DNA of 64,000 nt. Source: Paracoccus methylovorus. Its GTDB lineage: Bacteria; Pseudomonadota; Alphaproteobacteria; Rhodobacterales; Rhodobacteraceae. The notes beneath the pieces are model-generated. The model made no database searches and was not told the DNA's origin. It worked only from the letters and a program-made list of their open reading frames with translations. Position numbers and translations under genes: made by a program. The DNA is taken from positions 1,116,001 through 1,180,000 of the forward strand of contig NZ_CP070368.1 in assembly GCF_016919705.1 (NCBI RefSeq). The letters are read 5' to 3'. Below are positions 10,606 to 26,559 of the stretch, piece after piece (positions within the stretch are counted from its first letter, which is position 1; the number at the start of each line of letters is the position of its first letter).

Positions 10606-10717
10606 TAATGAAATGGAGCGCCATGGGGATGGCCAGTATTAATGCAAACATCCCGGTAAGCCGGCATATTGATCAGCGTCCGGTCAGGGCATGACTTCCG
10701 CAGGGTGACACAAAACG

Positions 10718-10742
10718 GGAACAACCTTGGCCTGACTGGGTT
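10718..10742 (+). promoter_or_regulatory. EcfG-type general stress promoter for ybdK
   Basis: GGAAC, 17 bases, GTT (10718-10722 and 10740-10742) match the -35 and -10 elements used by the alphaproteobacterial general stress sigma factor EcfG. The ybdK start codon follows 37 bases after the -10. Seven more such sites occur in the next 13 kb. Confidence 0.75.
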
Positions 10743-10778
10743 CGCTCTGAAGCCAAAGCCGACCGGAAAGGGCGCGAC

Positions 10779-11909
10779 ATGAGTTTAGAAGCCGAATTCT
10801 CGCTGGGAATAGAAGAGGAGTATCTGCTGGTCGATGCCCAGACCGGTGATCTCAGCGAGGCTCCCGATGCGCTGATGAAGGCATGCAAGGACGAACTTGC
10901 CGATCAGGTCAGCCCCGAATTCCTGCGTTGCCAGATCGAAATCGGCACACCTGTCTGCACCGATGTTGCCGAGGGCCGCGCATGTCTGGCCCATCTGCGC
11001 GGCAGTATCGCGCGCCATGCGGCCGACTTCGGCTTGGCGCCGATCTCGGTCGCCTGCCATCCCTTTGCTGACTGGCGGGAACAGGACCATACCGACAAAG
11101 ACCGCTATAACCAACTTTCCCAAGAGATGGGTGGCGTCGCGCGACGGATGTTGATTTGCGGCATGCATGTTCATGTGGGCATTCCCGACAGGGCCATGCG
11201 CATCGACCTGATGAATCAGCTATCGTGGTTCCTGCCGCATCTCTTGGCACTTTCCGCATCAAGCCCGTTCTGGCTGGGCGACGATACGCAGCTTGCCTCT
11301 TACCGCACGACGGTTTTCGCCGGCTATCCGCGCACGGGCCTGCCACCTCGCTTGGGCAGTTGGGACGAATTCGACCGATCTGTTACGGCGCTGACCGAAA
11401 CGGGGGTTATCGAGGATGCCAGCAAAATCTGGTGGGATCTGCGCCCCTCCGCACGTTTTCCGACCCTGGAAACCCGGATTTGCGACGCCTGCCCGCGACT
11501 GGACGACACGATCACTCTGGTCGCGCTGGTGCAGGCGACGCTGCGTATGCTGTGGCGACTATCGCGCCGGAACTTGCGCTGGCGGCAATACGATAACTTC
11601 CTGTTAGGCGAAAACCGCTGGCGCGCGACACGTTATGGGCTGACCGAGGGGCTGATCGACTTTGGGACCCGCAGCATCCTTCCCTTCGATCAGATCGCCG
11701 AGGATTGGCTGGCGGCAATTTCCGAGGATGCCGACGCGCTGGATAGCCAGCCTGCGGTGGCTGGATTGCGCAACATGATCACGCGCGGCAACGCGGCCGG
11801 GCAGCAGCGTGCGCTGTTCGCTTCGGCCATCGCTGCGGGCGCTACGCCGGACGAAGCTTTTCGCAGCGTCGTCCAGTGGCTGATCGAGGAATTCCGCCGT
11901 GACCTGTAA
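10779..11909 (+). CDS. ybdK: YbdK family carboxylate-amine ligase
   Basis: A 376-residue member of the glutamate-cysteine ligase 2 (YbdK) family, in which an ATP-grasp-like fold joins a carboxylate to an amine. E. coli YbdK has weak glutamate-cysteine ligase activity; the natural substrate is unsure. Visible motifs are LGIEEEYLLVD at the N-terminus, SPEFLRCQIEIGT, CGMHVHVGIPD and the C-terminal ENRWRATRYGL. It follows an EcfG-type promoter, which suggests a thiol- or redox-related task under stress, and it precedes sodC, which has its own promoter of the same type. Confidence 0.9.
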   Translation: MSLEAEFSLGIEEEYLLVDAQTGDLSEAPDALMKACKDELADQVSPEFLRCQIEIGTPVCTDVAEGRACLAHLRGSIARHAADFGLAPISVACHPFADWREQDHTDKDRYNQLSQEMGGVARRMLICGMHVHVGIPDRAMRIDLMNQLSWFLPHLLALSASSPFWLGDDTQLASYRTTVFAGYPRTGLPPRLGSWDEFDRSVTALTETGVIEDASKIWWDLRPSARFPTLETRICDACPRLDDTITLVALVQATLRMLWRLSRRNLRWRQYDNFLLGENRWRATRYGLTEGLIDFGTRSILPFDQIAEDWLAAISEDADALDSQPAVAGLRNMITRGNAAGQQRALFASAIAAGATPDEAFRSVVQWLIEEFRRDL

Positions 11910-11946
11910 CCCATCCGCTGGGCAAGGGTGGAATGGGGACCATGCG

Positions 11947-11971
11947 GGAACAAAGGTCGTCCGCGCCGGTT
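11947..11971 (+). promoter_or_regulatory. EcfG-type general stress promoter for sodC
   Basis: GGAAC (11947-11951), 17 bases, GTT (11969-11971). The sodC ATG lies 26 bases further down with GGAG in between. It is located in the gap between ybdK and sodC. Confidence 0.72.
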
Positions 11972-11997
11972 CTCCTTCCATCATTTGGAGAAAGAAA

Positions 11998-12495
11998 ATG
12001 CATAGATATCTTCTGGCCCTTGGCCTTGCTGCGCTGCCGGCTACGGCCCATGCGCAAGACGCAAAGGCAGTTTTCATTGACGCCAACGGGCAAGAGGCGG
12101 GCACGGCCGTGCTTACACCCACACCGAGCGGGGTGCTGATCCAGATCGAAGCGACCGGGCTGCCACAAAATCAATGGGTGGCGTTTCACATTCACGAAAC
12201 GGGAAGCTGCGATCACAACACCGGACATGAATCCGCAGGAGGGCATTTCAACCCTTCTGACGCACCGCATGGCATCCTGTCGGACGGCGGCCCCCATGCC
12301 GGCGACATGCCCAACGTCTGGGCAGACGCCGAAGGCACAGCGCGGGCGCAGGTATTCAACCCACTGGTCACGCTGGCGGAGGGGACGAATGCGATCAAGG
12401 GTCGGGCGCTGATGATCCACGCCGGCCCCGACGACTACAGCACCCAGCCCACCGGGGGCGCCGGCGACCGGCTTGCCTGCGCGGTGATCGAATAG
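11998..12495 (+). CDS. sodC: Periplasmic Cu/Zn superoxide dismutase
   Basis: A 165-residue protein with a clear Sec signal peptide (LLALGLAALPATAHAQ, cleaved near residue 20). The copper and zinc ligands sit in FHIHETGSCD, GGHFNP and HAGDMPN, and the C-terminal active-site segment ends GDRLACAVIE with the disulfide cysteine. It dismutates superoxide in the periplasm. The start is fixed by GGAG nine bases upstream. A bidirectional terminator separates it from the convergent kinase gene. Confidence 0.95.
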   Translation: MHRYLLALGLAALPATAHAQDAKAVFIDANGQEAGTAVLTPTPSGVLIQIEATGLPQNQWVAFHIHETGSCDHNTGHESAGGHFNPSDAPHGILSDGGPHAGDMPNVWADAEGTARAQVFNPLVTLAEGTNAIKGRALMIHAGPDDYSTQPTGGAGDRLACAVIE

Positions 12496-12537: not shown

Positions 12538-13626
12538 TCAGGTCTGCGCGCTCGGCCCGACGCCCAGACAGTTCATCTTGGTGCGTAATTCACAACACAA
12601 CCCTTGTGGCCGATGCGAAATCACGCTTTCGCCCATAAAATCCTGCGCGAGCACATGCTCGATGATGAGCGAGCCGAACCCTTTGCCCGTGCTACACGCC
12701 ACAGGCGGCCCATCGGACTCCGCCCATATCAGGCGAAAGGGGTCGTCGCTATGGGGCCGCCCGCTGGTCCAACTCAGATCGATTGCACCTTGGGGGACCG
12801 ACAGCGCACCATATTTCAGCGCATTGGTTGCCAGTTCGTTGATGGCAAGAGCCAAGGTCAGGGCCTGCTTTGCCGACAACCGGACCGGAGGGCCCGAGAT
12901 GCGAAACCGCCTTTGCCCGGTGCGAAAAGGCGTCAGCGCCTGCTGGATCACCTGCCCTATCTCGGCATCCAGCGCGCTGGAATCGGTCAGTAGCGATTGC
13001 GCCTGCGCCAGTGCGCCGATACGTTGACGCAAGATATCGCGCGCATCCTGACCGGTGTGGCTCTGCAGCGTCTGGTTGACGATGGCCGAGACCACGGTCA
13101 GCGTATTCTTGATCCGATGACCCAGTTCGCCGTTGATAAGGCGCAACTGCCGACTGGCCTGAACCTTGCCGGTCGTCTCGATCACCGTGTCGATCATGCC
13201 CCGCACTACACCGCTCTCGTCACGGATGGGACTATAGCAGAAGGTGAAATGACACTCCTCCGGATAGCCATAGCGATTCACAACCAGCGGAAAGTCCTCG
13301 ATGAAGGTCGCTTCTCCGGCATAGGCTCGCTCGGCGATGGGGCCGATCTCGGGCCAGACCTCGCGCCACACGTCGGAAAACGCGCGGCCAAGCGTGTTGT
13401 CCTTGTCCCCCAGAATCGGACGGAAGGCATCGTTGTGCAGGGCAATCAGCCCCGGCCCCCACACAATGCATTTGGGAAATTTCGAATTCAGCGCCATACC
13501 AAGCGCGATTTTAAGCGCCGAGGGCCAGCCGTCTGGGGGACCGAGTTCATTGCCGGCCCAGTCATGTTCACGGATGGCCTTGCCCATCTCGCCGCCGCCA
13601 TCCAGAAAATGCACCGATCCGCCCAT
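12538..13626 (-). CDS. PAS-domain HWE-family sensor histidine kinase
   Basis: About 362 residues from the ATG at 13626. The N-terminal half is a PAS-like sensor domain (FPKCIVWGPGLIALHNDAF, PVVNRYGYPEECHFTFCYSP-like). The kinase half has the HWE H-box LGHRIKNTLTVVSAIVNQTL and the HWE-type N box LALAINELATNALKYGALS. It also has the WxE motif in RLIWAESDGPP and a C-terminal GFGSLIIEHVL G box. HWE and HisKA_2 kinases commonly feed the PhyR-NepR-EcfG general stress pathway, which fits its position among EcfG-type promoters. It has no membrane segment, so it is cytosolic. An upstream extension to 13731 is possible but less likely. Confidence 0.88.
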   Translation of the reverse strand: MGGSVHFLDGGGEMGKAIREHDWAGNELGPPDGWPSALKIALGMALNSKFPKCIVWGPGLIALHNDAFRPILGDKDNTLGRAFSDVWREVWPEIGPIAERAYAGEATFIEDFPLVVNRYGYPEECHFTFCYSPIRDESGVVRGMIDTVIETTGKVQASRQLRLINGELGHRIKNTLTVVSAIVNQTLQSHTGQDARDILRQRIGALAQAQSLLTDSSALDAEIGQVIQQALTPFRTGQRRFRISGPPVRLSAKQALTLALAINELATNALKYGALSVPQGAIDLSWTSGRPHSDDPFRLIWAESDGPPVACSTGKGFGSLIIEHVLAQDFMGESVISHRPQGLCCELRTKMNCLGVGPSAQT

Positions 13627-13778: not shown

Positions 13779-13803
13779 GGAACGATTCCCTCGCCGTGCG
13801 GTT
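13779..13803 (+). promoter_or_regulatory. EcfG-type general stress promoter for the isochorismatase-fold gene
   Basis: GGAAC (13779-13783), 17 bases, GTT (13801-13803), 36 bases before the ATG at 13840. It lies in the divergent gap with the kinase gene. Confidence 0.72.
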
Positions 13804-13839: not shown

Positions 13840-14451
13840 ATGGCAGAAACACTTAGATTCGGTCCCTTGTCGCCCCAGACGCTGCATCTTTGCGTCGACA
13901 TGCAAAGATTGTTTGCCCCCGGTTCACCTTGGGCCGTGCCTTGGATTGAACGGATCCTGCCCGTCGCACTGACGCTGATCGCGGCGCGGCCTGAACGCAC
14001 ACTCTTTACCCGCTTCATTCCGCCCACCCGGCTGGAGGCCGCGCCGGGTACATGGGCACGTTATTACGCCGAATGGCCCCAGATGCTGCGCGATCGGCTG
14101 GATGGCGATTGGTTGGAACTGTTGCCAGAACTGGCGCGATACACCCCGCCCGCCCGAGTGGTCGACAAGCCGGTTTATTCGCCTTGGCATGACGGCTCGC
14201 TCCATCACCTGCTGCGCGGGGCGGGGGTCACGACGCTGGTGGTCACCGGGGGCGAAACCGACGTCTGTGTGCTCGCGACAGTGCTGGGTGCGGTAGACCT
14301 TGGCTATCGGGTGGTTTTGGTCAGCGATGCCGTCTGCTCTTCGACCGATCAGGGCCACGACGCGGCGATGACCGTCTATCGTTCCCGCTTTTCGCAGCAG
14401 ATCGAGACCGCACCCTTGGAAGAAATCCTCGGTGCATGGCCGACGGCATAA
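13840..14451 (+). CDS. Isochorismatase-family cysteine hydrolase
   Basis: A 203-residue protein of the isochorismatase-like fold. The catalytic triad of the family is visible: aspartate in LHLCVDMQRLF, lysine in RVVDKPVYS and cysteine in VTGGETDVCVLATVLGAVD. Such enzymes hydrolyse amides or nicotinamide-like compounds, but the substrate cannot be read from sequence. Preceded by its own EcfG-type promoter, it is probably stress-induced. Length and C-terminus are normal for the family. Confidence 0.88.
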   Translation: MAETLRFGPLSPQTLHLCVDMQRLFAPGSPWAVPWIERILPVALTLIAARPERTLFTRFIPPTRLEAAPGTWARYYAEWPQMLRDRLDGDWLELLPELARYTPPARVVDKPVYSPWHDGSLHHLLRGAGVTTLVVTGGETDVCVLATVLGAVDLGYRVVLVSDAVCSSTDQGHDAAMTVYRSRFSQQIETAPLEEILGAWPTA

Positions 14452-14473: not shown

Positions 14474-14498
14474 GGAACAACCCCGCCGCCGGGCAGTT
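14474..14498 (+). promoter_or_regulatory. EcfG-type general stress promoter
   Basis: GGAAC (14474-14478), 17 bases, GTT (14496-14498), 54 bases before the ATG at 14553. It probably drives the small membrane protein gene and the receiver-like gene that follows. Confidence 0.68.
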
Positions 14499-14552: not shown

Positions 14553-14798
14553 ATGTCTGCACCACGCACCAATCTGGAAAAGCAAAAGCGCCACCATATC
14601 GTTCCGATCATTGGGATCATCGTGGTGGTGCTAATCGCGCTGGGGGGCTTTTTGTGGTGGTTCAACGATGAAACCACCGACCCGGAAATCCCCGGTGAAG
14701 TGCCCGGACCCGTGGGAGAGATCGCGGAACCTCCGGCAACAGGCGCGGCTCCGGTGGACGGAGCGCCCGCAGCCGAGCCGGCGGAACCGACGCAATAA
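14553..14798 (+). CDS. Small single-span membrane protein, Pro/Ala/Glu-rich tail
   Basis: An 81-residue protein. A short basic N-terminus (NLEKQKRHH) precedes one hydrophobic helix (IVPIIGIIVVVLIALGGFLW), giving a likely N-in topology. It is followed by a periplasmic tail rich in Pro, Ala, Gly and Glu with no fixed fold. The family is not recognised. A ribosome binding site (GGAGG) lies just before the ATG. It is located between an EcfG-type promoter and the receiver-like gene, so it is probably a stress-envelope protein. Confidence 0.65.
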   Translation: MSAPRTNLEKQKRHHIVPIIGIIVVVLIALGGFLWWFNDETTDPEIPGEVPGPVGEIAEPPATGAAPVDGAPAAEPAEPTQ

Positions 14799-14845: not shown

Positions 14846-15601
14846 ATGCCGAACCGGAAAAACCCCTCATGCATCTCTCCGGCCGGGGTCCGGCATTTTT
14901 ACCGCAACGCCGATCTGCACGGGTTGCGGCTGGCGTTGTGGGAGGACGACCTGCCCGACACCTGCTCGGTCGCGGATTACCTGCGCGAAGCGGGCGCATC
15001 GGTCGAGGTCCTGATCAAAGGTTCGGATTCTGCCCAACCCGTGGCCTTGCCTGCGATGATGGCCCGCTATCGCCTGACGCCTTTTTGGTCGGGGGACGAA
15101 GCGGCTGACATTCACCTGCCCGGCCGTGGCATCGCCGGGGCGATGGTCGATCCTCGTGATCTGGTTCAGGTCGATGTGGCCGTGCTGAACCTGCGCGATC
15201 CTGCGCCAGTGGCGGACAGCCTGCAAGCGGCGGGCATTCCCTTTGTCATGTTCACCACGGATCCGGCGCATCCCGCGCATCACTACGCGCATGCCTGCGT
15301 CGTTTCCAGCCACGACGGACCCGAGGCCCTGGCCACGGCCGTGCTGCTGCACACTGCCCTCTATGGTGCGGGACTGCATTGCACGCCGGACATGACGGTG
15401 ATGGAAATGATCCCGCGACTTCGGGCCATGGCGCGGTTCATCGTTCATGACAGGGTGCTGGCCGATGATCTGGTCGCGGATGCATTGAAAGAGGCGCTGG
15501 CCCTTTTACCCCATCTGGATTCGGATCAGAAAATCGGCTCGCTGCTGATCGCGCTTATCGAAGGGATCTGGCAACGGCAAAAGCTGTCGCGGCCCAATTG
15601 A
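14846..15601 (+). CDS. Pseudo-receiver domain fused to a sigma2-like C-terminal segment
   Basis: This is a 251-residue protein. Residues about 28-165 resemble a response-regulator receiver: the acidic pair in LRLALWEDDLPD, then VDVAVLNLRDP where the phospho-acceptor aspartate would be replaced by asparagine, then IPFVMFTTDP with the conserved threonine. About 50 extra residues separate the first two strands. The C-terminal part (IPRLRAMARFIVHDRVLADD, LVADALKEALALL) resembles sigma-70 region 2 of ECF factors. PhyR, the anti-anti-sigma of the general stress response, has the opposite order (sigma-like then receiver). Function is therefore inferred only as a possible partner-switch protein. A plain receiver-like regulator is the alternative. 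Confidence 0.55.
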   Translation: MPNRKNPSCISPAGVRHFYRNADLHGLRLALWEDDLPDTCSVADYLREAGASVEVLIKGSDSAQPVALPAMMARYRLTPFWSGDEAADIHLPGRGIAGAMVDPRDLVQVDVAVLNLRDPAPVADSLQAAGIPFVMFTTDPAHPAHHYAHACVVSSHDGPEALATAVLLHTALYGAGLHCTPDMTVMEMIPRLRAMARFIVHDRVLADDLVADALKEALALLPHLDSDQKIGSLLIALIEGIWQRQKLSRPN

Positions 15602-15736: not shown

Positions 15737-15919
15737 ATGGCCGACCGCGAAAGTGGCCCGATTGTCGATCCCGACCTCGACAAAGCCCTGTCCGAACTGC
15801 TGGCGCAGACGGAAAAGGAACCGATTTCGCCACGCCTGCGCGATCTGGCTAAGCGGCTGGAGGCCGCGCTTGAGGACGCCCGCCATCGCCGTCACGGCCG
15901 CGCTAAGGACGGCCGCTAG
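15737..15919 (+). CDS. Small helical protein, candidate NepR-like
   Basis: A 60-residue charged, helical protein starting at 15737 behind GGGAG. The segment DKALSELLAQTEKEPISPRL then RDLAKRLEAALE resembles the core of NepR anti-sigma factors (a helix, then E-P-x-P-x-R-x-x-x-L-x-x-x-L). The tail is basic (RHRRHGRAK). It follows the pseudo-receiver gene and lies inside a group of EcfG-type promoters, which makes a regulatory role plausible. The similarity is short, and it could be an unrelated small protein. Confidence 0.4.
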   Translation: MADRESGPIVDPDLDKALSELLAQTEKEPISPRLRDLAKRLEAALEDARHRRHGRAKDGR

Positions 15920-16082
15920 ACGCAAATACTGGCGCCTGACCTAGCAGGGTTGGCGACCACCTCTCTTGCGAAACTCACCATAGCCCTTTTGCTGTCCGGC
16001 TTTTCACTGAGAACCGGCGCCTGACGGGGATTTCTCTCCGACGCGATGGCCTGCCCAGTGCCGGCACAGCAGAACGTGGCTG

Positions 16083-16108
16083 GGAACAAACCAGCCCGCC
16101 CAAAGGTT
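16083..16108 (+). promoter_or_regulatory. EcfG-type general stress promoter for the membrane protein-SDR operon
   Basis: GGAAC (16083-16087), 18 bases, GTTCC (from 16106), or 17 bases and GGTT. The ATG at 16137 follows with AGGAGG in front. Confidence 0.65.
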
Positions 16109-16136
16109 CCGATCCATATGCGAAAAGGAGGAACCG

Positions 16137-16853
16137 ATGACCCGTCCGATTGCGATGGCCCGTTTCGACCTGGCGTGGCCCTTGGCCGGAGCTTTCGCAG
16201 CCGTGCTCTCGGCATTAGCACTTGGGGTGTCGTCCGCGTTGCGCGGCCTGCCGGTCTGGATGCCGCTGAACGCCACCACCCATGCGCTGCACGGGCCGGC
16301 CGCTGCTACGACGACCGCGTTCGATCTGACCCATACCGGGCTGGGCGCGGCCATTCATGTCGTCTCTTGCTTCTTTTGGGCGGCGGTGGCCGTGCTGCTG
16401 ATCCGCAAGGCGGCACGCGGAGGCGCCGCAGTGGCCTGGCTTACGGGCTTGGCCACCGCCACGATTGCGGGGCTGATCGACTATGGCTTGATGCCGGCGC
16501 GCCTGCGGCCGGGATGGGAACTGGTGCTGTCGCCTCTGGGCGTCATAGCCGGGCTGGTGGCGCTGGGGGTCGGGCTGTCGCTGGGGCTGATCGCCGCGCA
16601 AGCCATGGCAAGCCGCGCGCCGGGAACATCGACCGGGCTTGATCGTTACCCCCCGGTCCGCAACCCAACCAAGACCTCGCAGGTCATACCGGATTCGGCA
16701 CTGGACCGCCTGCGGCAACCTGCGCCGGATGTGCTTGATCAGCGACAGCAACGCGTGGACCCGGCTGGCGCCGTCACCGACGACCCGAACCGGCACGGTA
16801 ACGGCAACAAGCAGCCCGGCCAGCCCGCCCCCCAAGAAAGGCCCGACAGATGA
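16137..16853 (+). CDS. Integral membrane protein, unknown function
   Basis: A 238-residue protein with a strong AGGAGG ribosome binding site. Four hydrophobic helices are visible (about residues 12-35, 70-88, 97-118 and 127-152), with a conserved-looking stretch NATTHALHGPAAATTTAFDL between the first two. The last 80 residues are hydrophilic and basic/proline-rich (NPTKTSQVIPDSALDRL, then PNRHGNGNKQPGQPAPQERP). The family is not recognised. Its stop overlaps the next ATG (ATGA), so it is coupled to the SDR gene and shares an EcfG-type promoter. Confidence 0.7.
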   Translation: MTRPIAMARFDLAWPLAGAFAAVLSALALGVSSALRGLPVWMPLNATTHALHGPAAATTTAFDLTHTGLGAAIHVVSCFFWAAVAVLLIRKAARGGAAVAWLTGLATATIAGLIDYGLMPARLRPGWELVLSPLGVIAGLVALGVGLSLGLIAAQAMASRAPGTSTGLDRYPPVRNPTKTSQVIPDSALDRLRQPAPDVLDQRQQRVDPAGAVTDDPNRHGNGNKQPGQPAPQERPDR

Positions 16854-17707
16854 CCGACTATCCCAAGCCCCCCTTTCCTGAGCAGCAGCAATCCCTGCCC
16901 GGCAGCTTTCAGCAGATGGATCCCCGTCCCGATCATGGTGAGAGCAGTTGGAAAGGCGCCGGACGGCTGGAGGGCAAGGTCGCGCTTATCACTGGCGGCG
17001 ACAGCGGCATCGGTCGCGCGGTCGCGATTGCCTATGCCCGCGAAGGCGCCGACGTGGCGCTGTCCTGGTTGAACGAGACCGAGGATGCGGCCAGCACCGC
17101 CGATCTTGTGCGCGAAGCGGGGCGCGACTGCCTGTCGATCCCCGGCGACATCGCCCAGCCCGACCATTGCCGCCAGATCGTCAGGCAGGTGGTTGAACGC
17201 TTTGGCCGGATCGACATTCTGGTCAACAACGCCGCCCATCAAACCCTGTTCGACGGCATCGAAGATATTCCGGACGAAGAGTGGCGCCACACTTTTGCCG
17301 TGAATATCGACGCGATCTTTTACCTGACCAAGGCGGCGGTGCCGCACATGCCCAAGGGCTCGGCGATCATCAACACCGCCTCGATCAATGCCGACAAACC
17401 CAATCCCAAGCTGTTGGCCTATGCCACGACCAAGGGCGCCATCCAAAACTTTACCACCGGCCTCGCGCAGATGCTGGCGGAACGCGGCATCCGGGTGAAC
17501 GCGGTGGCCCCCGGCCCGGTCTGGACGCCGCTGATCCCAGCCAGCATGTCACCCGAGCAAGTGGCCAAGTTCGGTGAAAATTACCCCATGAAGCGCCCGG
17601 CCCAGCCAGTCGAGCTGGCCTCGGCCTATGTGATGCTGGCCGAACCGATGTCCAGCTATGTCTCGGGCGCGACCATCGCCGTCACCGGCGGCATGCCGAT
17701 GATCTGA
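16850..17707 (+). CDS. Stress-type short-chain dehydrogenase (YghA/GSP39-like)
   Basis: A 285-residue SDR with the long N-terminal extension typical of the YghA/general stress protein 39 group (PKPPFPEQQQSLPGSFQQMD). The NAD(P) site is TGGDSGIGRAVA, the structural motif is NNAAHQT, and the active site has Ser in NTASINA and Tyr-x3-Lys in YATTKGA. Substrates in this group are poorly defined. It is coupled to the upstream membrane protein gene by a 4-base overlap and followed by a small stress-type gene 14 bases later. Confidence 0.9.
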   Translation: MTDYPKPPFPEQQQSLPGSFQQMDPRPDHGESSWKGAGRLEGKVALITGGDSGIGRAVAIAYAREGADVALSWLNETEDAASTADLVREAGRDCLSIPGDIAQPDHCRQIVRQVVERFGRIDILVNNAAHQTLFDGIEDIPDEEWRHTFAVNIDAIFYLTKAAVPHMPKGSAIINTASINADKPNPKLLAYATTKGAIQNFTTGLAQMLAERGIRVNAVAPGPVWTPLIPASMSPEQVAKFGENYPMKRPAQPVELASAYVMLAEPMSSYVSGATIAVTGGMPMI

Positions 17708-17721: not shown

Positions 17722-17943
17722 ATGAACAACCGCAATCTTGTGTTCTTCTGCGGCCTTGCGGCCGGCTTCGCGTTGAAAACTGTCTGCGATACCATGGCAC
17801 AGCCGGCCGGATCGCATTCTCCGCAACGGAAAATCCGCCCTGCCGGGCGCCGTGAAATGGATAACCCGCCCCGCGACTGGGATATCGTTGACGAACAAAG
17901 CGACGAATCCTTTCCGGCAAGCGATCCGCCGGGGAATTACTGA
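17722..17943 (+). CDS. Small hypothetical stress protein
   Basis: A 73-residue protein with a hydrophobic N-terminal stretch (LVFFCGLAAGFALKTVCD) and an acidic tail ending SDESFPASDPPGNY. The SFPASDPP end recurs in small stress-island proteins of alphaproteobacteria (from memory), with unknown function. It ends the operon of the membrane protein and SDR. AAGGAG precedes the ATG, and a strong hairpin follows the stop. Confidence 0.65.
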   Translation: MNNRNLVFFCGLAAGFALKTVCDTMAQPAGSHSPQRKIRPAGRREMDNPPRDWDIVDEQSDESFPASDPPGNY

Positions 17944-18187: not shown

Positions 18188-18244
18188 TAACTTCATCCTT
18201 CAATTTTTGCCGTGGGACAGCAAGTCCGGCCGGGTCGTCCGGCC

Positions 18245-19019: not shown

Positions 19020-19850
19020 GTGGCACCACGGGCGATCTGGAAAGGACTGCTGAAGATAGCCGAGGTCAGTTGCCCGGTCGCCCTGCATGCCGCAGCCTCC
19101 ACCTCCGAGCGGATTGCGTTTCACACGCTGAACCGGGCGACCGGAAACCGGGTGCGGCGGCAGTTCACCGACAGCGACACCGGAAAGCCGGTCGAAAAGG
19201 ATGATCAGGTCAAGGGATACGAGGTCAGCGACGGCGATTATGTCATTCTGGAGCCCGAGGAAATCGCGGGTGCCGTGCCCGACAGCGACAAGACGCTGAC
19301 GGTCGCCTGTTTCATCACCTGCAAGGATATCGACGATGTTTATTTCGACCGGCCCTATTACTTGACCCCGGCAGACCGGACGGCCGAGGAAGCCTTTGCC
19401 CTGATCCGCGAAGGCATGCGCCGCAAAAAGATGGCAGCACTGGCGCGGGCGGTTCTGTTTCGGCGCGTACGCACGGTGCTTGTCCGTCCACATGGCCCCG
19501 GCATGATCGCCACCACGCTGAATTTCGATTACGAGGTGCGCCCGGCCAGCGAGGCGTTTCGCGACATCTCCAACCTCAAGATCAAGGGCGAAATGCTGGA
19601 TCTGGCCAAGCATATCATCGACACCAAGATGGGTGAATTCGACATCACCGCCTTTGACGACCGTTACGAGGCGGCACTGGCCGATCTGGTCAAAGCCAAG
19701 CAGGAAGGTCGCAAGATCGCGCCGAAAAAGCCCGAAAAACGCGAAAATGTCGTGGATCTGATGGCTGCGCTGCGCGAAAGCGCAGGTCTGGCGACCAAGA
19801 AAGCGGCTCCTCGCAAAAAGACGCCGGCGGCGCGACGGAAAAGCGGCTGA
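19020..19850 (+). CDS. ku: Non-homologous end joining protein Ku (copy 1)
   Basis: A 276-residue bacterial Ku that forms a ring on double-strand break ends and recruits LigD. It begins MAPRAIWKGLLKIAEVSCPV from a GTG codon with GAAGG upstream. The core has RIAFHTLNRATGNRV, TGKPVEKDDQVKGYEV, LEPEEI and MLDLAKHIIDTK. The C-terminus is lysine-rich (ATKKAAPRKKTPAARRKSG), which usually aids DNA threading and ligase recruitment. It lies three bases upstream of ligD, in one operon behind an EcfG-type promoter. A second, divergent copy lies after ligD. Confidence 0.95.
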   Translation: MAPRAIWKGLLKIAEVSCPVALHAAASTSERIAFHTLNRATGNRVRRQFTDSDTGKPVEKDDQVKGYEVSDGDYVILEPEEIAGAVPDSDKTLTVACFITCKDIDDVYFDRPYYLTPADRTAEEAFALIREGMRRKKMAALARAVLFRRVRTVLVRPHGPGMIATTLNFDYEVRPASEAFRDISNLKIKGEMLDLAKHIIDTKMGEFDITAFDDRYEAALADLVKAKQEGRKIAPKKPEKRENVVDLMAALRESAGLATKKAAPRKKTPAARRKSG

Positions 19851-19853: not shown

Positions 19854-22394
19854 ATGGCGCTGGAAACCTATCGCAAGAAGCGCGACTTTTCCTCGACCCC
19901 GGAACCCAAGGGCGGGCGGGCCCGCAAGCGCGGCAACAGCTTCGTCATCCAGAAACATGCGGCAACGCGGCTGCACTACGATTTCCGGCTGGAGCTGGAT
20001 GGGGTGTTGAAAAGCTGGGCCGTCGCCAAAGGGCCAAGTCTGGTGCCGGGCGAAAAGCGGCTGGCCGTGCATGTCGAGGATCACCCGCTGGAATATGGCG
20101 ATTTCGAAGGCACGATCCCGAAAGGCGAATATGGCGGCGGCACGGTCATCCTGTGGGACCGCGGCACCTGGACCCCGGTGGGTGATGCACATCAAGGCTA
20201 TGCCAAGGGGCATCTGGAATTCACGCTTCAGGGTGAAAAGCTGGGTGGGCGCTGGCATCTGGTCCGCATGCGCGGCAAGCCCCGCGAAAAGCGTGAAAAC
20301 TGGCTGCTGATCAAGGGTGAGGACGAATTCGCCCGAACCGAAGACGCGCCCGACATCCTTGAGGAACGGCCGGATTCGGTCAAGACCGGCCGGGCCATCG
20401 CAGATGTCGCGGGCGAGACACCGGGCTGGTCCTCGAAAACCGGGCGCATCCGCAAATCGGCCGCCCCGGCGAAAAAGCCGTCCGCGCCAAAGCCGGACCC
20501 GCAACCGCCCGAACCCGCGGCCGTCAAGGGCGCACGCAAGGCCGCGATGCCGGATTTCATCGAACCCATGCTGGCCACGCTGGTCTCGGCCCCGCCGCAG
20601 GGCAAACGCTGGCTGCATGAAATCAAGTTCGACGGCTACCGGCTTCAGGCCCGGATCGAGGCCGGGCGGGTCAAGCTGTTGACACGCAGCGGGCTGGACT
20701 GGACCACCCGCTTTGGCAAGGCCGTGCCTTTGGCGCTGCGCGACCTGCCAGTCGGCGCGGCGATACTTGATGGCGAACTGGTGGTCGAAACAGATGCCGG
20801 GGCCTCGGATTTCTCGGCGCTTCAGGCGGATCTGAGCGCGGGCCGGTCCGACCGTTTCGTGTTCTATGCCTTCGATCTGCTTTATCTTGACGGATACGAT
20901 CTGCGGACGGTGGCACTGGTGCAGCGCAAGGCATTGCTTGCGCAGCTTTTGGATAAGGGCGCCGGCATCCTGCGCCTGAGCGGCCATCTTGAGGAAAGCG
21001 GCGCGCTGGTCCTGCGCCACGCCTGCCGGCTTAGCCTTGAAGGGATCGTCTCGAAACTGCGCGACGGCCCTTATCGGGCGGGTCGGGGCAAAAGCTGGGT
21101 CAAGTCGAAATGCTCGGCCCGGCAAGAATTCGTGGTCGCCGGATATGTGCCATCATCGGTGTCGCGCAAGGCCGTGGGCTCGCTGATCCTGGGCGTTTAC
21201 GAAGATGGCAATTTGCAGCATGTGGGCCGGGTCGGAACCGGATTCTCCCGCACGGTAGCCGAGGATCTGTTCCAGCGGCTGGAGCGGATGCGCATTCCCG
21301 ACAGCCCCTTTGCCGAACATCTGACCGCCGAGGAGGCGCGGCAAGCCCGCTATGTGCGCCCCGAACTGGTGGCCGAAGTCGAATTCCGCGCATGGACGGC
21401 CGACGGCCATCTGCGCCACGCCTCGTTTCGCGGCCTGCGCGAGGACAAACCCGCAGCCGAGATCGTGCGCGAGACCACGAAAGCCCGCGCCAAGGCCCCA
21501 GCCCCGCAAAAACGCCGTGTCCATCTGACCCATCCCGACCGGCTGTATTGGCCCGGCGAGGGCGTGACGAAAGAGGGGCTGGCCGATTACTATGCCGAGG
21601 TCTGGCACCATATCGCGCCATGGGTCACCGGCCGGCCGCTGGCCCTTTTGCGTTGTCCGAACGGCATCACCGGCCAGAAGTTCTTTCAAAAGCACGCCTG
21701 GAAAGGGCTGAACCCCAACATCGCGCTGATTCAGGATCCCAAGGCCCCCAAGGACGAACCGCTCATCAGCATCAACGATCTGGACGGGCTTATGGGATTG
21801 GTCCAATCCGCCGCGCTGGAAATCCATCCTTGGGGCTCGACCGTCGCCGATTGGGAACGGCCCGACATGATCGTCATGGACCTCGATCCCGGGGAAGACG
21901 TGGTCTGGCCCGCCGTCATCGACGCCGCCGAAGAGGTGCGCCGGCGTCTTGAGGACCATGGCATTGCCAGTTTCGTCAAGACCTCGGGTGGTAAGGGGCT
22001 GCATGTCGTGGCGCCGCTGGTGCCGCAGGCGGAATGGTCCGCAGTCAAGGCCTTCACCAAGGCGATGGCCGAGGCGATGGCCGCCGACAGCCCCGACCGT
22101 TACGTCGCGACGATCAGCAAGGCGAAACGGCACGGAAAGATCCTGATCGACTATCTGCGCAACCAGCGCGGTGCCACCGCCGTCGCGGCCTATTCCACCC
22201 GCGCCCGGCCCGGTGCCGCCGTATCCGCCCCGCTGCGCTGGGACGAGCTCGACGCCAGCATCGGGTCCGCGTGGTTCACCGTCCAGAACATGCCGACGCG
22301 GCTGGCAACCTTGACCAACGATCCCTGGGACGGCTTTCGCGCCGCCGCAGTGCCGTTGGAGACGCCGCGCAAAGGACGGAAAAAGCCAGGTTAA
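19854..22394 (+). CDS. ligD: ATP-dependent DNA ligase LigD (PE-Lig-Pol)
   Basis: An 846-residue three-domain repair enzyme. Residues about 30-150 are the 3'-phosphoesterase domain (HAATRLHYDFRLELDGVLKS). Residues about 235-530 are the ligase, with the AMP-lysine in LHEIKFDGYRLQ and ILDGELVV as motif III. Residues about 550-840 are the primase-like polymerase (HLTHPDRLYWPGEGVTKEGL, MVMDLDPGEDVVW with catalytic aspartates, SGGKGLHVVAPL). Linkers are Ala/Pro/Lys-rich. It trims, fills and seals ends held by Ku. It is the full Pseudomonas-type length. It overlaps the convergent second Ku gene by four bases at the end. Confidence 0.96.
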   Translation: MALETYRKKRDFSSTPEPKGGRARKRGNSFVIQKHAATRLHYDFRLELDGVLKSWAVAKGPSLVPGEKRLAVHVEDHPLEYGDFEGTIPKGEYGGGTVILWDRGTWTPVGDAHQGYAKGHLEFTLQGEKLGGRWHLVRMRGKPREKRENWLLIKGEDEFARTEDAPDILEERPDSVKTGRAIADVAGETPGWSSKTGRIRKSAAPAKKPSAPKPDPQPPEPAAVKGARKAAMPDFIEPMLATLVSAPPQGKRWLHEIKFDGYRLQARIEAGRVKLLTRSGLDWTTRFGKAVPLALRDLPVGAAILDGELVVETDAGASDFSALQADLSAGRSDRFVFYAFDLLYLDGYDLRTVALVQRKALLAQLLDKGAGILRLSGHLEESGALVLRHACRLSLEGIVSKLRDGPYRAGRGKSWVKSKCSARQEFVVAGYVPSSVSRKAVGSLILGVYEDGNLQHVGRVGTGFSRTVAEDLFQRLERMRIPDSPFAEHLTAEEARQARYVRPELVAEVEFRAWTADGHLRHASFRGLREDKPAAEIVRETTKARAKAPAPQKRRVHLTHPDRLYWPGEGVTKEGLADYYAEVWHHIAPWVTGRPLALLRCPNGITGQKFFQKHAWKGLNPNIALIQDPKAPKDEPLISINDLDGLMGLVQSAALEIHPWGSTVADWERPDMIVMDLDPGEDVVWPAVIDAAEEVRRRLEDHGIASFVKTSGGKGLHVVAPLVPQAEWSAVKAFTKAMAEAMAADSPDRYVATISKAKRHGKILIDYLRNQRGATAVAAYSTRARPGAAVSAPLRWDELDASIGSAWFTVQNMPTRLATLTNDPWDGFRAAAVPLETPRKGRKKPG

Positions 22395-23197
22395 CGCCGC
22401 TTTGCCTTGCTTTCCGAAGCAATGCTTTTCTTCAGCGCGTCCATGATGTTGACGACATTGCCCGATGCCGCGGGTTTGTCGGGTTGTGCCTTGGCTGCGC
22501 GCTTGCGGCCCCGGGTCTTGGCTGAGATGATGTCCAGCAGCTTGTCCTGCACCGGATCGGCAACCATCGCCGGGTCCCATTTCATGCTGCGCTCGTCGAT
22601 CAGCCGGGTCACCAGCTTCATTAACCCGGCATCGACCGGCTCTTCACCGATCTGGCTGAAATAATCCGCCTCGGGCCGCACCTCGTCGCCATAGCGCAGG
22701 GTCCACAAGACGATGCCCTTGTCGCGCGGCTCCAGCATCACCGCCCGTTCGCGACGATAAAGCACCAGCCGAGAGATGCCGACCGTTCCGGTCGAGCCCA
22801 TGGCATCGCGGATCACGCCAAAGGCTTCTTCGCCGATAGGGTCGTCCGGGACCAGATAATGCGGCTTGTCATACCAAAGCCAGCCGATGGAATCCGCAGG
22901 CACGAACATGTCGATATCAATGGTGCGGGTGCTTTCCAGCGCCACCGAATCGATCTCGTCATCCTCAAGCAGGACATATTCATCCTCGCCCTTGGGATAA
23001 CCCTTGACCTCGTCATCCTCGGCCACGGGCTTGCCGGTTCCGGCATCGACATACTGGCTGACCACGCGGTTGCCCGTCCTGGCGTTCAGCGTGTGAAAAC
23101 GCAGTTTTTCGCCCTCGCTTGTGGCCGGCATCATCGACACCGGACAAGTGACCAGCGAGAGCTTCAGATAGCCTTTCCAGAAAGAGCGCGGCGCCAT
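22391..23197 (-). CDS. ku: Non-homologous end joining protein Ku (copy 2)
   Basis: A 268-residue Ku with MAPRSFWKGYLKLSLVTCPV at the start and LRFHTLNARTGNRVVSQYVD, GKPVAEDDEVKGYPKGEDEY and RLIDERSMKWDPAMVADPVQ in the core. It is clearly diverged from copy 1. The tail is shorter and less basic. Two Ku genes around one ligD is common in alphaproteobacteria, where hetero- and homodimers can differ in use. The start overlaps the stop of the upstream small gene (TGATG), so both share the EcfG-type promoter at 23512-23536. Confidence 0.95.
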   Translation of the reverse strand: MAPRSFWKGYLKLSLVTCPVSMMPATSEGEKLRFHTLNARTGNRVVSQYVDAGTGKPVAEDDEVKGYPKGEDEYVLLEDDEIDSVALESTRTIDIDMFVPADSIGWLWYDKPHYLVPDDPIGEEAFGVIRDAMGSTGTVGISRLVLYRRERAVMLEPRDKGIVLWTLRYGDEVRPEADYFSQIGEEPVDAGLMKLVTRLIDERSMKWDPAMVADPVQDKLLDIISAKTRGRKRAAKAQPDKPAASGNVVNIMDALKKSIASESKAKRR

Positions 23198-23475
23198 CAG
23201 GGTTCGTCGCGTTCGGTCGCGTCCCGGGGGCGCGTGTCGGGCAGATCGTCCGCATCCGTATCCGAACGGCTGGCGACATGATCCTGATGTTGCTGGTTCT
23301 GCACATGGCGTCCGTCCAGCCCGCGCTGGTCGGAATGGCGAGAGGTATCGCGATTGGACAGAACCATGTTGTCGGGCAGGTTATCGACCAAATCCGGGGT
23401 CATGCCACCCGAGGCATCCCCCTTGCCCTGATCCTGCTGCCCTGCCCCGAACTTCTTGCGGCTTGCATGGGCCAT
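23197..23475 (-). CDS. Small hydrophilic protein upstream of ku copy 2
   Basis: A 92-residue protein from the ATG at 23475 behind GGAGG (MAHASRKKFGAGQQDQGKGD). It is polar throughout, rich in Asp, Arg, Gln and His, with one slightly hydrophobic stretch (LVDNLPDNMVLSNRD). No known family. It is translationally coupled to ku copy 2 by a one-base overlap and led by an EcfG-type promoter. It may be a disordered stress protein. Confidence 0.65.
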   Translation of the reverse strand: MAHASRKKFGAGQQDQGKGDASGGMTPDLVDNLPDNMVLSNRDTSRHSDQRGLDGRHVQNQQHQDHVASRSDTDADDLPDTRPRDATERDEP

Positions 23476-23511: not shown

Positions 23512-23536
23512 AACCCTTGGTCCGGCGCAATGTTCC
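23512..23536 (-). promoter_or_regulatory. EcfG-type general stress promoter for the small gene-ku2 operon
   Basis: Minus strand: GGAAC (23536-23532), 17 bases, GTT (23514-23512), 37 bases before the ATG at 23475. Confidence 0.74.
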
Positions 23537-23703: not shown

Positions 23704-24192
23704 ATGAAAACCCTGCAAGAAGCTTTCGAACACACCCTGCACGACATCTATTGGGCGGAAAACGCCTTGGTAAAGGCGCTGCCCAAAGTCTCGAAGGCGG
23801 TCGGAAACGCTGAACTGAAAACCGCGATCGACGAGCACCTCAAGGAAACCAAGGGACACGTCAAGACATTGGATCAGGTCTTTCAGTCTCTTGGCCTGAA
23901 ACCCGAAGGCGAAAAATGCGACGCGATGGAAGGGCTGCTGAAAGAGGCCGATGGTCTGATGGAAGAGGCGTCAGGCACGGCCTTGGACGTCGCCTTGATC
24001 GGTGCTGCACAGGCCGTGGAACACTACGAGATCGCGCGTTACGGTACCCTTCGCGAATGGGCGAAAGTTCTGGATCACGAAGAGGCCCATAACCTGCTCT
24101 CCTCGATCCTGGATGAAGAAAAGGCGGCCAATAACAAGCTGACGGCCTTGGCGGTGACCGCTGTCAACAAGGCAGGCAAATCCGGCAAGTAA
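23704..24192 (+). CDS. DUF892 (YciE/YciF-like) ferritin-like protein
   Basis: A 162-residue four-helix-bundle protein. The repeated pattern (LHDIYWAENALVKALPKVSK, IDEHLKETKGHVKTLDQVF, GAAQAVEHYEIARYGTLREW, LLSSILDEEKAANNKLT) gives the E...ExxH metal-ligand spacing of the ferritin-like DUF892 family. These proteins are induced by stress, and their metal chemistry is not settled. The promoter is less clear than its neighbours': GGAAC at 23629-23633 is followed after 17 bases by CTT instead of GTT. A hairpin separates it from the catalase gene. Confidence 0.9.
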   Translation: MKTLQEAFEHTLHDIYWAENALVKALPKVSKAVGNAELKTAIDEHLKETKGHVKTLDQVFQSLGLKPEGEKCDAMEGLLKEADGLMEEASGTALDVALIGAAQAVEHYEIARYGTLREWAKVLDHEEAHNLLSSILDEEKAANNKLTALAVTAVNKAGKSGK

Positions 24193-24208
24193 ACCGGAAA
24201 CACCCTCA

Positions 24209-24237
24209 GCGGCCGGGACGGCATGATGCCCGGCCGC
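24209..24237 (+). terminator. Hairpin after the DUF892 gene
   Basis: A perfect 9-bp GC-rich stem (GCGGCCGGG/CCCGGCCGC) with an 11-base loop and a short TCT after it. It is probably a partial terminator before the catalase gene. Confidence 0.6.
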
Positions 24238-24278
24238 TCTTCCGGCTCCATCCCAACCCCATTTCGGAAGGCAGGACG

Positions 24279-26339
24279 ATGGCTGACGAAAAACTCTATG
24301 AAACAAAGCAAGGCAACGGCGGCGAGCGCCAGCAAATTGCGCGTGGCGACACATCCGCGATGACCACGAATTTCGGCGCCCCGCTCTCGGACAACGAAAA
24401 CAGCCTCAAGGCGGGTGATCGGGGACCGACGCTGCTGGAAGATTTCATCCTGCGCGAAAAAATCTTCCATTTCGACCACGAGCGCATCCCGGAGCGCATC
24501 GTCCATGCCCGCGGCTCGGCCGCGCATGGCTATTTCGAATGCACCGACCCGATCCCCGAACTCAGCCGCGCCAGCCTATTTGCCGAAAAAGGCAAAAAGA
24601 CCCCGGTGTTTACGCGCTTTTCGACGGTGGCGGGCGGGGCCGGATCGGTCGACACCCCGCGCGACGTGCGGGGCTTTGCCGTGAAGTTCTATACCGACGA
24701 AGGCAACTGGGATCTGGTCAGCAACAACATCCCGGTCTTTTTCATTCAGGATGCGATCAAATTTCCCGACCTGATCCATGCGGTCAAGATGGAGGCCGAC
24801 CGGGCCTATCCTCAGGCGGCCTCGGCCCATGACACCTTCTGGGATTTCATCTCGCTGATGCCGGAAACGCTGCACACGCTGATCTGGGCCATGTCCGACC
24901 GCGGCATTCCCCGCAGCCTGCGCATGATGGAAGGGTTCGGCGTCCATACCTTCAAGCTGGTCAACGCCGAGGGCAAGGAGAGCTTCGTCAAATTTCATTG
25001 GCGGCCCAAGCTGGGGATGCAGTCGCTGATCTGGGACGAGTCGGCAAAACTTCAGGGCGCGGACAACGACTATCACCGCCGCGATCTGTGGGAGGCGATC
25101 ACCCGAGGAGATTTCCCGGAATGGGATTTCGCGGTGCAGGTCTTCGATCAGGAACTGGCCGACAGCCTGCCCTATGACGTGCTGGATGCGACCAAGCTGA
25201 TCCCCGAAGAGGTGGTGCCGTTGCGGGTCATTGGCCGCATGGTTCTGGACCGCAACCCGGACAACTTCTTCGCCGAGACCGAACAGGCCGCCTTCCTGCC
25301 CTCGAACATCGTGCCGGGCATCGACTTTACCGACGACCCGCTGTTGCAGGGGCGGTTGTTTTCCTATCTCGACACACAGAAATCGCGGCTGGGGACCGCG
25401 AATTTCCACCAGATCCCGATCAATGCCGCCAAATGTCCCTTTGCCAACATGCAGCGCGACGGGATGATGCAGACGCATGTCCCCCGGGGCCGTGCGAACT
25501 ATGAACCCAACAGCTTGGACGAAGCGGGCGAAGACCCGGGCCCTCGCCCCCTTAGCACGGGTTTCGTCACCCGTCCCCAAGAGGTAAGCGGCCCCAAGCT
25601 GCGGGTCCGCGCGGAAAGCTTTGGTGATTTTTACAGCCAGCCGCGCATGTACTGGAATTCGATGACGGCCAGCGAGCAGGCCCATATCGCCTCGGCCATG
25701 GTCTTCGAACTGTCCAAGGTTTCGCTTGAGCATGTGCGCAAGCGAATGCTCTCGCAGCTTCATGTGCTGCACGAGGATCTGGCCAAGCGCGTTGCGACCG
25801 GGCTGGCGATGGAACTGCCTGACCCGGTGGCGCCCTTCCAGCAGCCGATTGATCTGGAGCCCTCAGACGCATTGTCGATCCAGAAGAAATGGCGAGAGAC
25901 CCTTGAAGGTCGTCAGGTCGCAATTCTCTTCGCCGAGGGCTCGGATCAGGCCCGGATCGAGGCGTTGAAACGGGCAATCGAGGCAGAGAGGGGCACGGTC
26001 TTTACCATTGCACCAAAAGTTGGCGGTATCCCGGTCTCAGGTGGCATGATGAAGGCGGACGGGCAACTTGCCGGATCGCCCTCGGTCCTGTTCGATGCGA
26101 TAGCCTTGGTGCTGACAGCCGAAGCCGCAACCAAGCTGGCGCAGGACGCCGCCGCCGTGAGCTTTGTTGCGGATGCCTTTGCCCATCTGAAAGCGATCGG
26201 GACGACTGAGGAAGCCAAGGCACTTTTGGACAAGGCAGGCGTCCAGCCGGATCAGGGTGTCACCGATCTTGACGGGCTGCCCGATGCGGCCAAGCTGCGC
26301 TATTGGGATCGCGAGCCCAAGGTGCGGGATTTGGCCTGA
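24279..26339 (+). CDS. katE: Large-subunit monofunctional catalase (HPII/KatE-like)
   Basis: A 686-residue clade 2 heme catalase that splits hydrogen peroxide. The distal histidine lies in [13 protein letters not shown] (about residue 76) and the distal asparagine in [20 protein letters not shown] (about 149). The heme-ligand tyrosine is in [14 protein letters not shown] (about 362). After the core, residues about 540-686 form the extra flavodoxin-like domain of large catalases ([36 protein letters not shown]). It follows the DUF892 gene, and large catalases are standard general-stress members. No own EcfG-type site was found in the short upstream gap. Confidence 0.95.
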
Positions 26340-26360
26340 AAAGGCCCCAGAAGGACCCAA

Positions 26361-26392
26361 CTCGCGGCAGGGCGTTAATTCCCTGTCGCGAG
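26361..26392 (+). terminator. Terminator-like hairpin after katE
   Basis: CTCGCGGCAGGG pairs with CCCTGTCGCGAG (one mismatch) around an 8-base loop shortly after the catalase stop. Confidence 0.65.
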
Positions 26393-26559
26393 ACGTTGTC
26401 AGAGAAGGGGACGGACCCTTTCGCTCGGCGCGAAAACGGGCGTTCCAGCCGAGGCCGGCCCTAGGTTAAAGCTCAGCGCCCGAGCGTGGCCATGGACCAA
26501 GATGCCAAGGCCCCGCAGCAGTTCGTCGGTAAGCGACAGAAGCCGCTGTCGAGACCCCG

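Follow-up and report, generated by a model that had tools for sequence, protein, structure and literature searches.

A 16-kb stress and repair island lies in the 64,000-nucleotide stretch of the Paracoccus methylovorus genome analysed here (contig NZ_CP070368.1, positions 1,116,001 to 1,180,000; hereafter the window), and its transcription units are preceded by promoters of the type read by EcfG, the general stress sigma factor of Alphaproteobacteria. Besides enzymes of DNA repair and oxidative defence, the island encodes a PAS-HWE histidine kinase, a 60-residue NepR-like protein (NepR2) and a protein, REC-sigma2, in which a receiver domain is followed by an EcfG/PhyR-type sigma region 2, the opposite of the domain order of PhyR. 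The island units are very probably one co-regulated EcfG-promoter set. Taken as a whole, the locus is, on balance, best read as a transferable stress and repair island that combines EcfG-driven units with a second partner switch of its own. The sequence itself shows the promoter sites and how they recur, the genes present, the domain architectures and the gene losses, and from these we infer transcription, binding and the direction of regulation.

The preliminary description of this DNA had listed eight sites of the form GGAAC-N17/18-GTT. All eight were found, exact, at the positions and on the strands it gave, six on the plus strand (10718, 11947, 13779, 14474, 16083 and 18954, of which only 16083 has an 18-base spacer) and two on the minus strand (18867 and 23536). 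The short and similar spacing that it described was likewise borne out, the first base of GGAAC lying 51-79 bases ahead of the start codon. A search for exact GGAAC-N16-18-GTT added two island matches absent from that list. The sites are as follows, each distance being that between the first G of GGAAC and the start codon.

10718 to 10742, plus strand: EcfG-type promoter (GGAAC-N17-GTT) before the ybdK-like gene, 61 bases
11947 to 11971, plus strand: EcfG-type promoter (exact site) before sodC, 51 bases
13779 to 13803, plus strand: EcfG-type promoter (exact site) before the isochorismatase-fold gene, 61 bases
14474 to 14498, plus strand: EcfG-type promoter of the 81-residue protein gene, 79 bases, and, judged solely from the spacing, of the REC-sigma2 gene
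16083 to 16108, plus strand: EcfG-type promoter (exact site, N18) before the operon of the 238-residue membrane protein and a short-chain dehydrogenase (SDR), 54 bases
16085 to 16110, minus strand: overlapping opposite-strand site (exact), absent from the earlier list
16623 to 16647, plus strand: exact motif within the 238-residue membrane protein gene, absent from the earlier list
18843 to 18867, minus strand: EcfG-type promoter (exact site) before the PRC-barrel set, 62 bases from the PRC-barrel gene
18954 to 18978, plus strand: EcfG-type promoter (exact site) before ku-ligD, 66 bases
23512 to 23536, minus strand: EcfG-type promoter (exact site) before the operon of a 92-residue protein and the second ku (ku2), 61 bases

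The EcfG consensus given in the available excerpt of PMC4814048 is GAAC-N16,17-C/GGTT, and that of Sphingopyxis granuli is GGAAC-N16-CGTT (excerpt of PMC7083833). In six of the eight listed sites a C or G precedes GTT, as in the former consensus, while the other two have A or T. Upstream of nepR2, the HWE kinase gene and katE no exact site was found in the window; the yciF-katE pair has a one-mismatch GGAAC-N17-CTT at 23629, 75 bases before the yciF start (23704), and the kinase gene a one-mismatch GAAAC-N18-GTT. The internal motif at 16623, 486 bases from the start of its gene (16137-16853) and 227 bases before the SDR gene, recurs at the identical 486-base offset in genomes G118, G072 (L134) and G026 (L132); either constraint on the coding sequence or a promoter within it, ahead of the SDR gene, may account for this.

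Clustering by chance or base composition was rejected on shuffles, genome density and recurrence in relatives, and we regard it as practically negligible. The window holds 13 motif matches, compared with a mean of 4.04 and a maximum of 9 in 100 dinucleotide shuffles. The whole genome (4,381,421 bases, 5 contigs) holds 282, from which 1.03 would be expected in the 16-kb island, where 10 were counted (Poisson P 1.5e-7, uncorrected for the choice of place). The point in favour of chance is the genome-wide count of the reversed pattern (575; 281 + 294), about double that of the motif, yet this pattern occurs only twice in the island; the motif is thus not enriched as such, but concentrated in the island. 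As background for sites before starts we used 20 stretches of 20 kb from the same genome instead of a genome-wide count, and these contained 20 motif matches and 38 reversed-pattern matches, two of each being upstream of a called gene. Of the island matches, 5/10 were upstream of a gene according to the crude gene caller and 8/10 with starts set by hand; the caller's figure is too low because it set the sodC start too early and missed the 81-residue protein gene and the PRC-barrel gene.

To assess recurrence, the 150 bases ahead of each homolog of an island gene were searched, on that gene's own strand, in 41 loci: 12 stretches (the window and two others of its genome included), 23 of 30 loci carrying a second sigma factor gene, ecfG2, and six loci whose REC-sigma2 relatives have an intact receiver. 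The site was present in 56/132 upstream regions, against 3/132 for the reversed control. When the two boxes were permuted, giving 90 patterns of which the motif is one, the runner-up reached 20 (same -35 box, TTG) and the rest at most 7. Counting the window's own copies, recurrence was high for ybdK, sodC and the PRC-barrel gene (4/4 each), the isochorismatase-fold and 81-residue protein genes (6/7 each), the membrane protein gene (9/10), the yciF-like gene (11/13), ku (3/4) and nepR1 (1/1). The 92-residue protein gene scored 1/1, by the window's own copy only, and ku2 itself 1/4. Low values were obtained for DUF3008 (2/5), SDR (2/10), the 73-residue protein (1/7) and ecfG2 (1/5), and no site was found upstream of ligD (0/3), the 69-residue protein gene (0/4), REC-sigma2 (0/9), intact-type REC-sigma2 (0/1), katE (0/1), phyR (0/1) or ecfG1 (0/1); several of these genes of low or zero recurrence sit inside operons. 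The earlier proposal of a single regulon is thus supported by the recurrence of sites before related genes, though not for every gene: nepR2, the kinase gene and katE have no exact site, and yciF has a one-mismatch version only.

GGAAC-like -35 boxes are common to many groups of extracytoplasmic function (ECF) sigma factors, and the genome has further region-4 matches (34 at E up to 1; 8 over the Pfam cut-off, including EcfG1, EcfG2 and PhyR), both of which count in favour of an ECF factor outside the EcfG group reading the sites. On the other side, ecfG2 was the only sigma gene recurring in relatives' islands, in searches whose queries were EcfG1 and EcfG2 only. In 6/8 sites both spacer and -10 GTT agree with the consensus for EcfG (excerpt of PMC4814048), and ku-ligD and catalases are known EcfG targets, ku-ligD being controlled by EcfG in S. 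granuli (excerpt of PMC7083833). Such a foreign reader of the sites appears very unlikely.

The window genome has one canonical general stress locus, at 2.163 Mb of contig C1, with PhyR (NF006623, 358.7 bits), NepR (53.1 bits) and EcfG (EcfG1), and an exact site lies 65 bases before nepR of its nepR-ecfG operon. With sites recurring before related Paracoccus genes, PhyR-NepR-EcfG encoded in the genome and a site before nepR-ecfG, the EcfG reading offered by the preliminary description is thus well supported. Canonical-type NepR was detected in 123 of 125 Paracoccus genomes. EcfG2, 39% identical to EcfG1, is encoded on contig C5 and has both sigma regions 2 and 4; it scored below the cut-offs of the specific NCBIfam ECF models, and only the general sigma70-ECF model passed. 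EcfG2 matches of at least 51% identity occur in 43 of the 125 genomes of the genus.

The island is not merely a passive EcfG target, since it contains regulatory genes and, in relatives, often ecfG2 as well. The preliminary description had missed this regulatory set (HWE kinase, REC-sigma2, NepR2 and, in relatives, ecfG2). A passive target island devoid of regulators was dropped as an explanation on account of the PhyR_sigma2 match of 14846-15601, although below the cut-off, and of a homolog of the 60-residue protein gene found beside EcfG2. The gene identities given earlier were confirmed by Pfam, apart from the "SDR operon", which begins with the unnamed gene of the 238-residue membrane protein. 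The island genes are listed below.

10779 to 11909, plus strand: YbdK-type carboxylate-amine ligase (GCS2; Pfam PF04107, E 5.6e-63)
11998 to 12495, plus strand: sodC, Cu/Zn superoxide dismutase (Pfam PF00080)
12538 to 13626, minus strand: PAS-HWE histidine kinase (Pfam HWE_HK, E 3.2e-21), present in several island relatives and a candidate stress sensor of the island
13840 to 14451, plus strand: isochorismatase-fold hydrolase (Pfam PF00857)
14553 to 14798, plus strand: 81-residue protein with one hydrophobic stretch, no Pfam match, kept in relatives
14846 to 15601, plus strand: REC-sigma2 protein, 251 residues (PhyR_sigma2 at E 1.6e-4, its 22.1 bits falling short of the Pfam cut-off of 27)
15737 to 15919, plus strand: NepR2, 60-residue NepR-like candidate anti-sigma factor, by its position beside ecfG2 in relatives and profile similarity
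15920 to 16082: junction that in relatives holds ecfG2 (in some also a divergent yciF-like gene), neither being present here
16137 to 16853, plus strand: membrane protein, 238 residues, no Pfam match
16850 to 17707, plus strand: short-chain dehydrogenase (Pfam PF13561)
17722 to 17943, plus strand: 73-residue protein, last of the SDR operon
18005 to 18196, minus strand: DUF3008 protein (Pfam PF11450, E 1.1e-30)
18245 to 18454, minus strand: 69-residue hydrophilic protein
18509 to 18805, minus strand: PRC-barrel protein (Pfam PF05239)
19020 to 19850, plus strand: Ku (Pfam PF02735)
19854 to 22394, plus strand: LigD with phosphoesterase, ligase and primase-polymerase domains (Pfam)
22391 to 23197, minus strand: second Ku (Pfam PF02735)
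23197 to 23475, minus strand: 92-residue protein ahead of the second ku
23704 to 24192, plus strand: YciF-like DUF892 protein (Pfam PF05974)
24279 to 26339, plus strand: large catalase, katE (Pfam PF00199)

REC-sigma2 shows a receiver fold at residues ~25-178 and an EcfG/PhyR-type sigma region 2 at ~184-247, whereas PhyR has its sigma-like domain at the N-terminus and its receiver at the C-terminus. No sigma region 4 was found by Pfam search, the protein ending right after region 2, and a role as an active sigma factor is unlikely, for it lacks both region 4 and the stretch that reads the -10 box. It is not one of the six proteins that matched NF006623 at E up to 1. In the window clade the position of the phosphoacceptor Asp is occupied by N in 21/23 rows and by S in 2/23, and the Lys of the receiver is missing as well. 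The family comprises 22 proteins, 42-98% identical, and each of the two domains has positions that do not vary or hardly vary, which suggests constraint. The sigma2 domain is about as similar to EcfG1 as to EcfG2, and the protein co-occurs with EcfG2. Searched by itself against PDB sequences, the window protein drew a single unrelated match (E 0.7). As for its structural model, only VIA-align and the search with the domain alone were informative: Foldseek with the whole model returned nothing below E 0.001, the top hits being mostly unrelated folds, and VIA-align with the whole model showed no PhyR among the matches listed, while Foldseek with the C-terminal domain gave sigma or PhyR chains or transcription complexes as the top 15, though all at E 0.3 or above.

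Reversed proteins with an intact receiver, having Asp in 9/10 rows (E in one) and Lys in 10/10, are carried by Paracoccus laeviglucosivorans, Ruixingdingia and Roseivivax, among others. Near full-length REC-sigma2 matches occur in at least 5 of 394 family genomes, the window's own included, and in at least 1 of 385 class genomes, plus a second of that genus by reading frame; these are lower bounds, as genomes were sampled and 7-8 candidates were scored per genome. The receiver profile of the intact clade was closest to PDB 2lpm, which we take to be Sma0114, and to SdrG (5ieb), and its C-terminal profile to the EcfG chain of 5uxx. The surroundings were inspected at eight loci (L188-L193, L257, L258). 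At L192 the intact-receiver gene adjoins an EcfG2-like gene, and at L188 an EcfG2-like gene lies 5.5 kb and an HWE gene 7 kb away. L193 shows the order HWE kinase, single receiver, SDR, REC-sigma2, nepR2, ecfG2 remnant, membrane protein gene, SDR and PRC. The single-domain receiver between the HWE kinase gene and the SDR and REC-sigma2 genes of this locus (L193:8356-8751, 131 residues) is possibly a phosphate relay partner. At L257 and L258, outside the family, REC-sigma2, a NepR2-like protein and a PAS-HWE kinase are encoded one after another, and neither locus showed an exact site. At L189 and L190 an exact site stands directly before the intact-receiver gene. In the genome of L190 (G174), this gene (C4 3029486-3030022) lies ~11 kb from canonical nepR (3041481-3041582).

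NepR2 has 30 database entries including itself, all intact, and those with an organism name all come from Paracoccus. In 20 of the 30 EcfG2 loci fetched (from 30 of the 43 EcfG2-carrying genomes), ecfG2 is immediately preceded, in the same orientation, by a nepR2 homolog; this holds for 15/15 loci with EcfG2 at least 79% identical, including the frame-broken C5 copy of the window genome. The layout is thus seen in homologs, the window nepR2 having no ecfG2 beside it. Against a broad set of 60 NepRs, hhalign gave a probability of 72.7, E 3.2e-5 and a score of 27.1, compared with at most 16.6 for 40 column shuffles. Membership in the Pfam NepR family was not obtained, and the protein is kept as NepR-like, a name that relies on gene position and weak profile similarity. 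We consider it likely that NepR2 would be the anti-sigma factor of EcfG2, and the chances that REC-sigma2 would antagonize NepR2 appear evenly balanced. Self-activation of nepR2-ecfG2 in the manner of nepR-ecfG was rejected: none of 22 upstream regions has an exact site, and none with up to one mismatch was found in the 200 bases before the window nepR2.

In the proposed mechanism, EcfG-type sigma factors would switch on the transcription units of the island together, and the fuller island of relatives would carry its own partner switch, composed of PAS-HWE kinase, NepR2, EcfG2 and REC-sigma2. The sigma region 2 of REC-sigma2 would mimic EcfG, bind NepR2 and so free EcfG2, as PhyR does for NepR-EcfG. 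Phosphorylation would drive REC-sigma2 in the relatives with intact receivers; in the window clade, where Asp and Lys are lost, the release of EcfG2 would depend on the level of the REC-sigma2 protein or on another input. By its spacing, the REC-sigma2 gene would be on the EcfG-driven transcript of the 81-residue protein gene, which would close a positive loop. A phosphorylation-free dose switch in the window clade is a tentative suggestion. It is similarly speculative that the whole forms a second mobile stress circuit with its own regulon, in which the reversed PhyR, shortened to a single sigma domain and in Paracoccus no longer phosphorylated, would be a dose-dependent sponge for NepR2 supplied by the EcfG-driven transcript of the island, the response would latch and, in the window strain, the circuit would be split over two replicons. 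The window genome has an ecfG2-nepR2 pair on C5 (L033:1680-1928 and 1201-1689; C5 ~91.5-92.3 kb), whose nepR2 copy shifts frame after residue 32 relative to the intact relative P0039, and no ecfG was found in the 64-kb window by tblastn. The island and C5 each keep one half of the nepR2-ecfG2 pair, and the two replicons look complementary. Because ecfG2 is off the island and next to a frame-broken nepR2, either EcfG1, or EcfG2 controlled by NepR2 in trans, would have to serve the island promoters in this strain.

Several observations weigh against a switch of this kind. PhyR uses sigma region 4 in holding NepR, and REC-sigma2 has no region 4. Pfam matches of REC-sigma2 proteins were below the curated cut-offs in 6/7 scanned, P0056 alone exceeding it (27.4 vs 27), and the L257 protein matched none. 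Strong REC-sigma2 matches are missing from 34 of the 43 EcfG2 genomes (one of them, G040, has the intact-receiver type), and hence the switch can dispense with REC-sigma2 or uses PhyR. Three weak matches within the genus proved to be a broken REC-sigma2 (G072), the intact-receiver version (G040) and EcfG1 (G006). The copy of G072 (L080, G072:C1:103836-104057) is frame-broken behind the 81-residue protein gene and P0022 (P. yeei) is truncated, both of which weaken the switch, and the pseudo-receiver of the window clade may itself be decay. NepR2 gave no match to Pfam NepR (PF18557) up to E 10 and a hhalign probability of only 17.7 against genus NepRs alone; in the remaining EcfG2 loci nepR2 lies elsewhere (3/30) or no NepR2 match was found (7/30). 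The similarity of the NepR2-like protein of L257 and L258 is confined to its second half, and at L189, L190 and L191 the 12-20 kb fetched contain no EcfG2 or NepR2 match. The window strain has no ecfG2 in the island. On the promoter side, an exact EcfG promoter is absent before nepR2(-ecfG2) (0/22) and the HWE kinase gene (0/4), and an opposite-strand site was present in 35/132 upstream regions, partly as overlapping divergent pairs.

Part of this evidence would also suit a plain target cluster of canonical EcfG1, with NepR2 and REC-sigma2 as decaying left-overs in this strain. The near-universal canonical NepR of the genus, the off-island ecfG2, the frame-broken nepR2 on C5, the receiver without Asp and Lys and the defective copies in G072 and P0022 all agree with it, whereas the conservation of both domains across the 22 REC-sigma2 proteins suggests constraint and the 30 NepR2 homologs, the window's included, are intact; we hold this account to be possible, if doubtful. 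Somewhat more doubtful still is that NepR2 and REC-sigma2 act on canonical PhyR/NepR1/EcfG1, for example by a titration that dampens the response or makes it last longer. Two NepR paralogues of Methylobacterium bind PhyR but none of the sigma factors tested, according to the excerpt of PMC4814048, and the sigma2 domain is about equally like EcfG1 and EcfG2; set against this are the placement of nepR2 directly upstream of ecfG2, which is the layout of a cognate pair, and the co-occurrence of REC-sigma2 with EcfG2. We thus retain, on balance, the island with its own partner switch.

Gene order in relatives bears on the history of the island. In P. aminovorans it lies on plasmid IV with ecfG2 in place, and in P. 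versutus and P. ferrooxidans, too, large replicons carry it. The window island is on the 2.17-Mb contig, where flagellar genes and an IS66-type remnant flank it at one end and a polysaccharide gene at the other; IS66-type transposase remnants (window 9453-10554) border it on the left, and IS66 genes also follow the island on the P. aminovorans plasmid. In relatives the yciF-like genes, 43-47% identical to the window gene at 23704, and the membrane protein genes are often divergent, with an overlapping pair of sites in common. In the window, homology to relatives breaks off at ~15911 and is regained at 16120; between nepR2 and the membrane protein gene, ecfG2 and the yciF-like gene are gone, while both sites (16083/16110) are kept; the minus-strand site at 16085-16110 fits a left-over of the divergent promoter. 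In P. laeviglucosivorans (G040) no more than two end pieces are left of the island ecfG2 (L193:10602-10757), and the loss of this gene from the island thus seems to have occurred more than once, the G040 loss being apparently independent. An extra open reading frame between REC-sigma2 and nepR2 was noted in G013 (C4 ~568.2-569.9 kb, L085), G074 and G011 and is absent from the window; judged by eye, it resembles a hemerythrin-type domain with a repeat-rich MPRNSNMPERDERGRFVSDD protein behind it. Outside the island, window 44902-46281 encodes a ScfRs-type regulator (helix-turn-helix, IrrE-like peptidase and short-chain acyl-CoA regulator domain).

The system resembles the known PhyR-NepR-EcfG switch in its EcfG promoters, HWE kinase, small NepR-like gene upstream of ecfG and joining of a receiver and an EcfG-like sigma domain in one protein, and differs in the reversed domain order, the missing region 4, the window-clade receiver without Asp, the position of the module within its target island and, in the window strain, the off-island ecfG2. 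The receivers SdrG and Sma0114, to which the intact-clade receiver is closest by profile, stand alone with no sigma domain. Non-homologous end joining is reportedly tied to RpoE2 in Sinorhizobium. S. granuli likewise has two EcfGs, two NepR-like genes, GGAAC-N16-CGTT promoters, a regulon with ku-ligD, catalases and an HWE kinase gene, and one ecfG without an EcfG promoter of its own; the excerpt of that report does not describe the targets as one island or mention a reversed PhyR (PMC7083833). In Methylobacterium extorquens there are extra small NepR-like proteins and ecfG genes without an EcfG promoter, although none of its six ecfGs is at the phyR locus; two further NepR homologues bind PhyR and not sigma, and one paralogue, when overproduced, lowers stress resistance (excerpt of PMC4814048). 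RT-PhyR' of Rubellimicrobium thermophilum is, according to the excerpt of PMC12148442, a PhyR paralogue not phosphorylated by the kinase RT-HK, with NepR binding uncoupled from activation; it differs in having typical sigma-like and receiver folds in the usual PhyR arrangement. In the titles and abstract openings of open-licence literature, neither a reversed PhyR nor an EcfG response of Paracoccus was found among the matches listed. EcfG control of ku-ligD has already been published for Sphingopyxis; the apparent novelty is an island that has a reversed switch of its own.

In this island, repair by end joining and defence against oxidative stress would form a single movable unit with the stress switch that governs them. 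The reversed architecture shows that a receiver and a sigma mimic have been combined in the opposite order too. The island would offer a natural test of whether one sigma domain suffices to hold NepR and whether such a switch can run without phosphorylation, and its small unnamed proteins (81, 73, 69 and 92 residues, DUF3008 and the 238-residue membrane protein) would gain a testable regulon.

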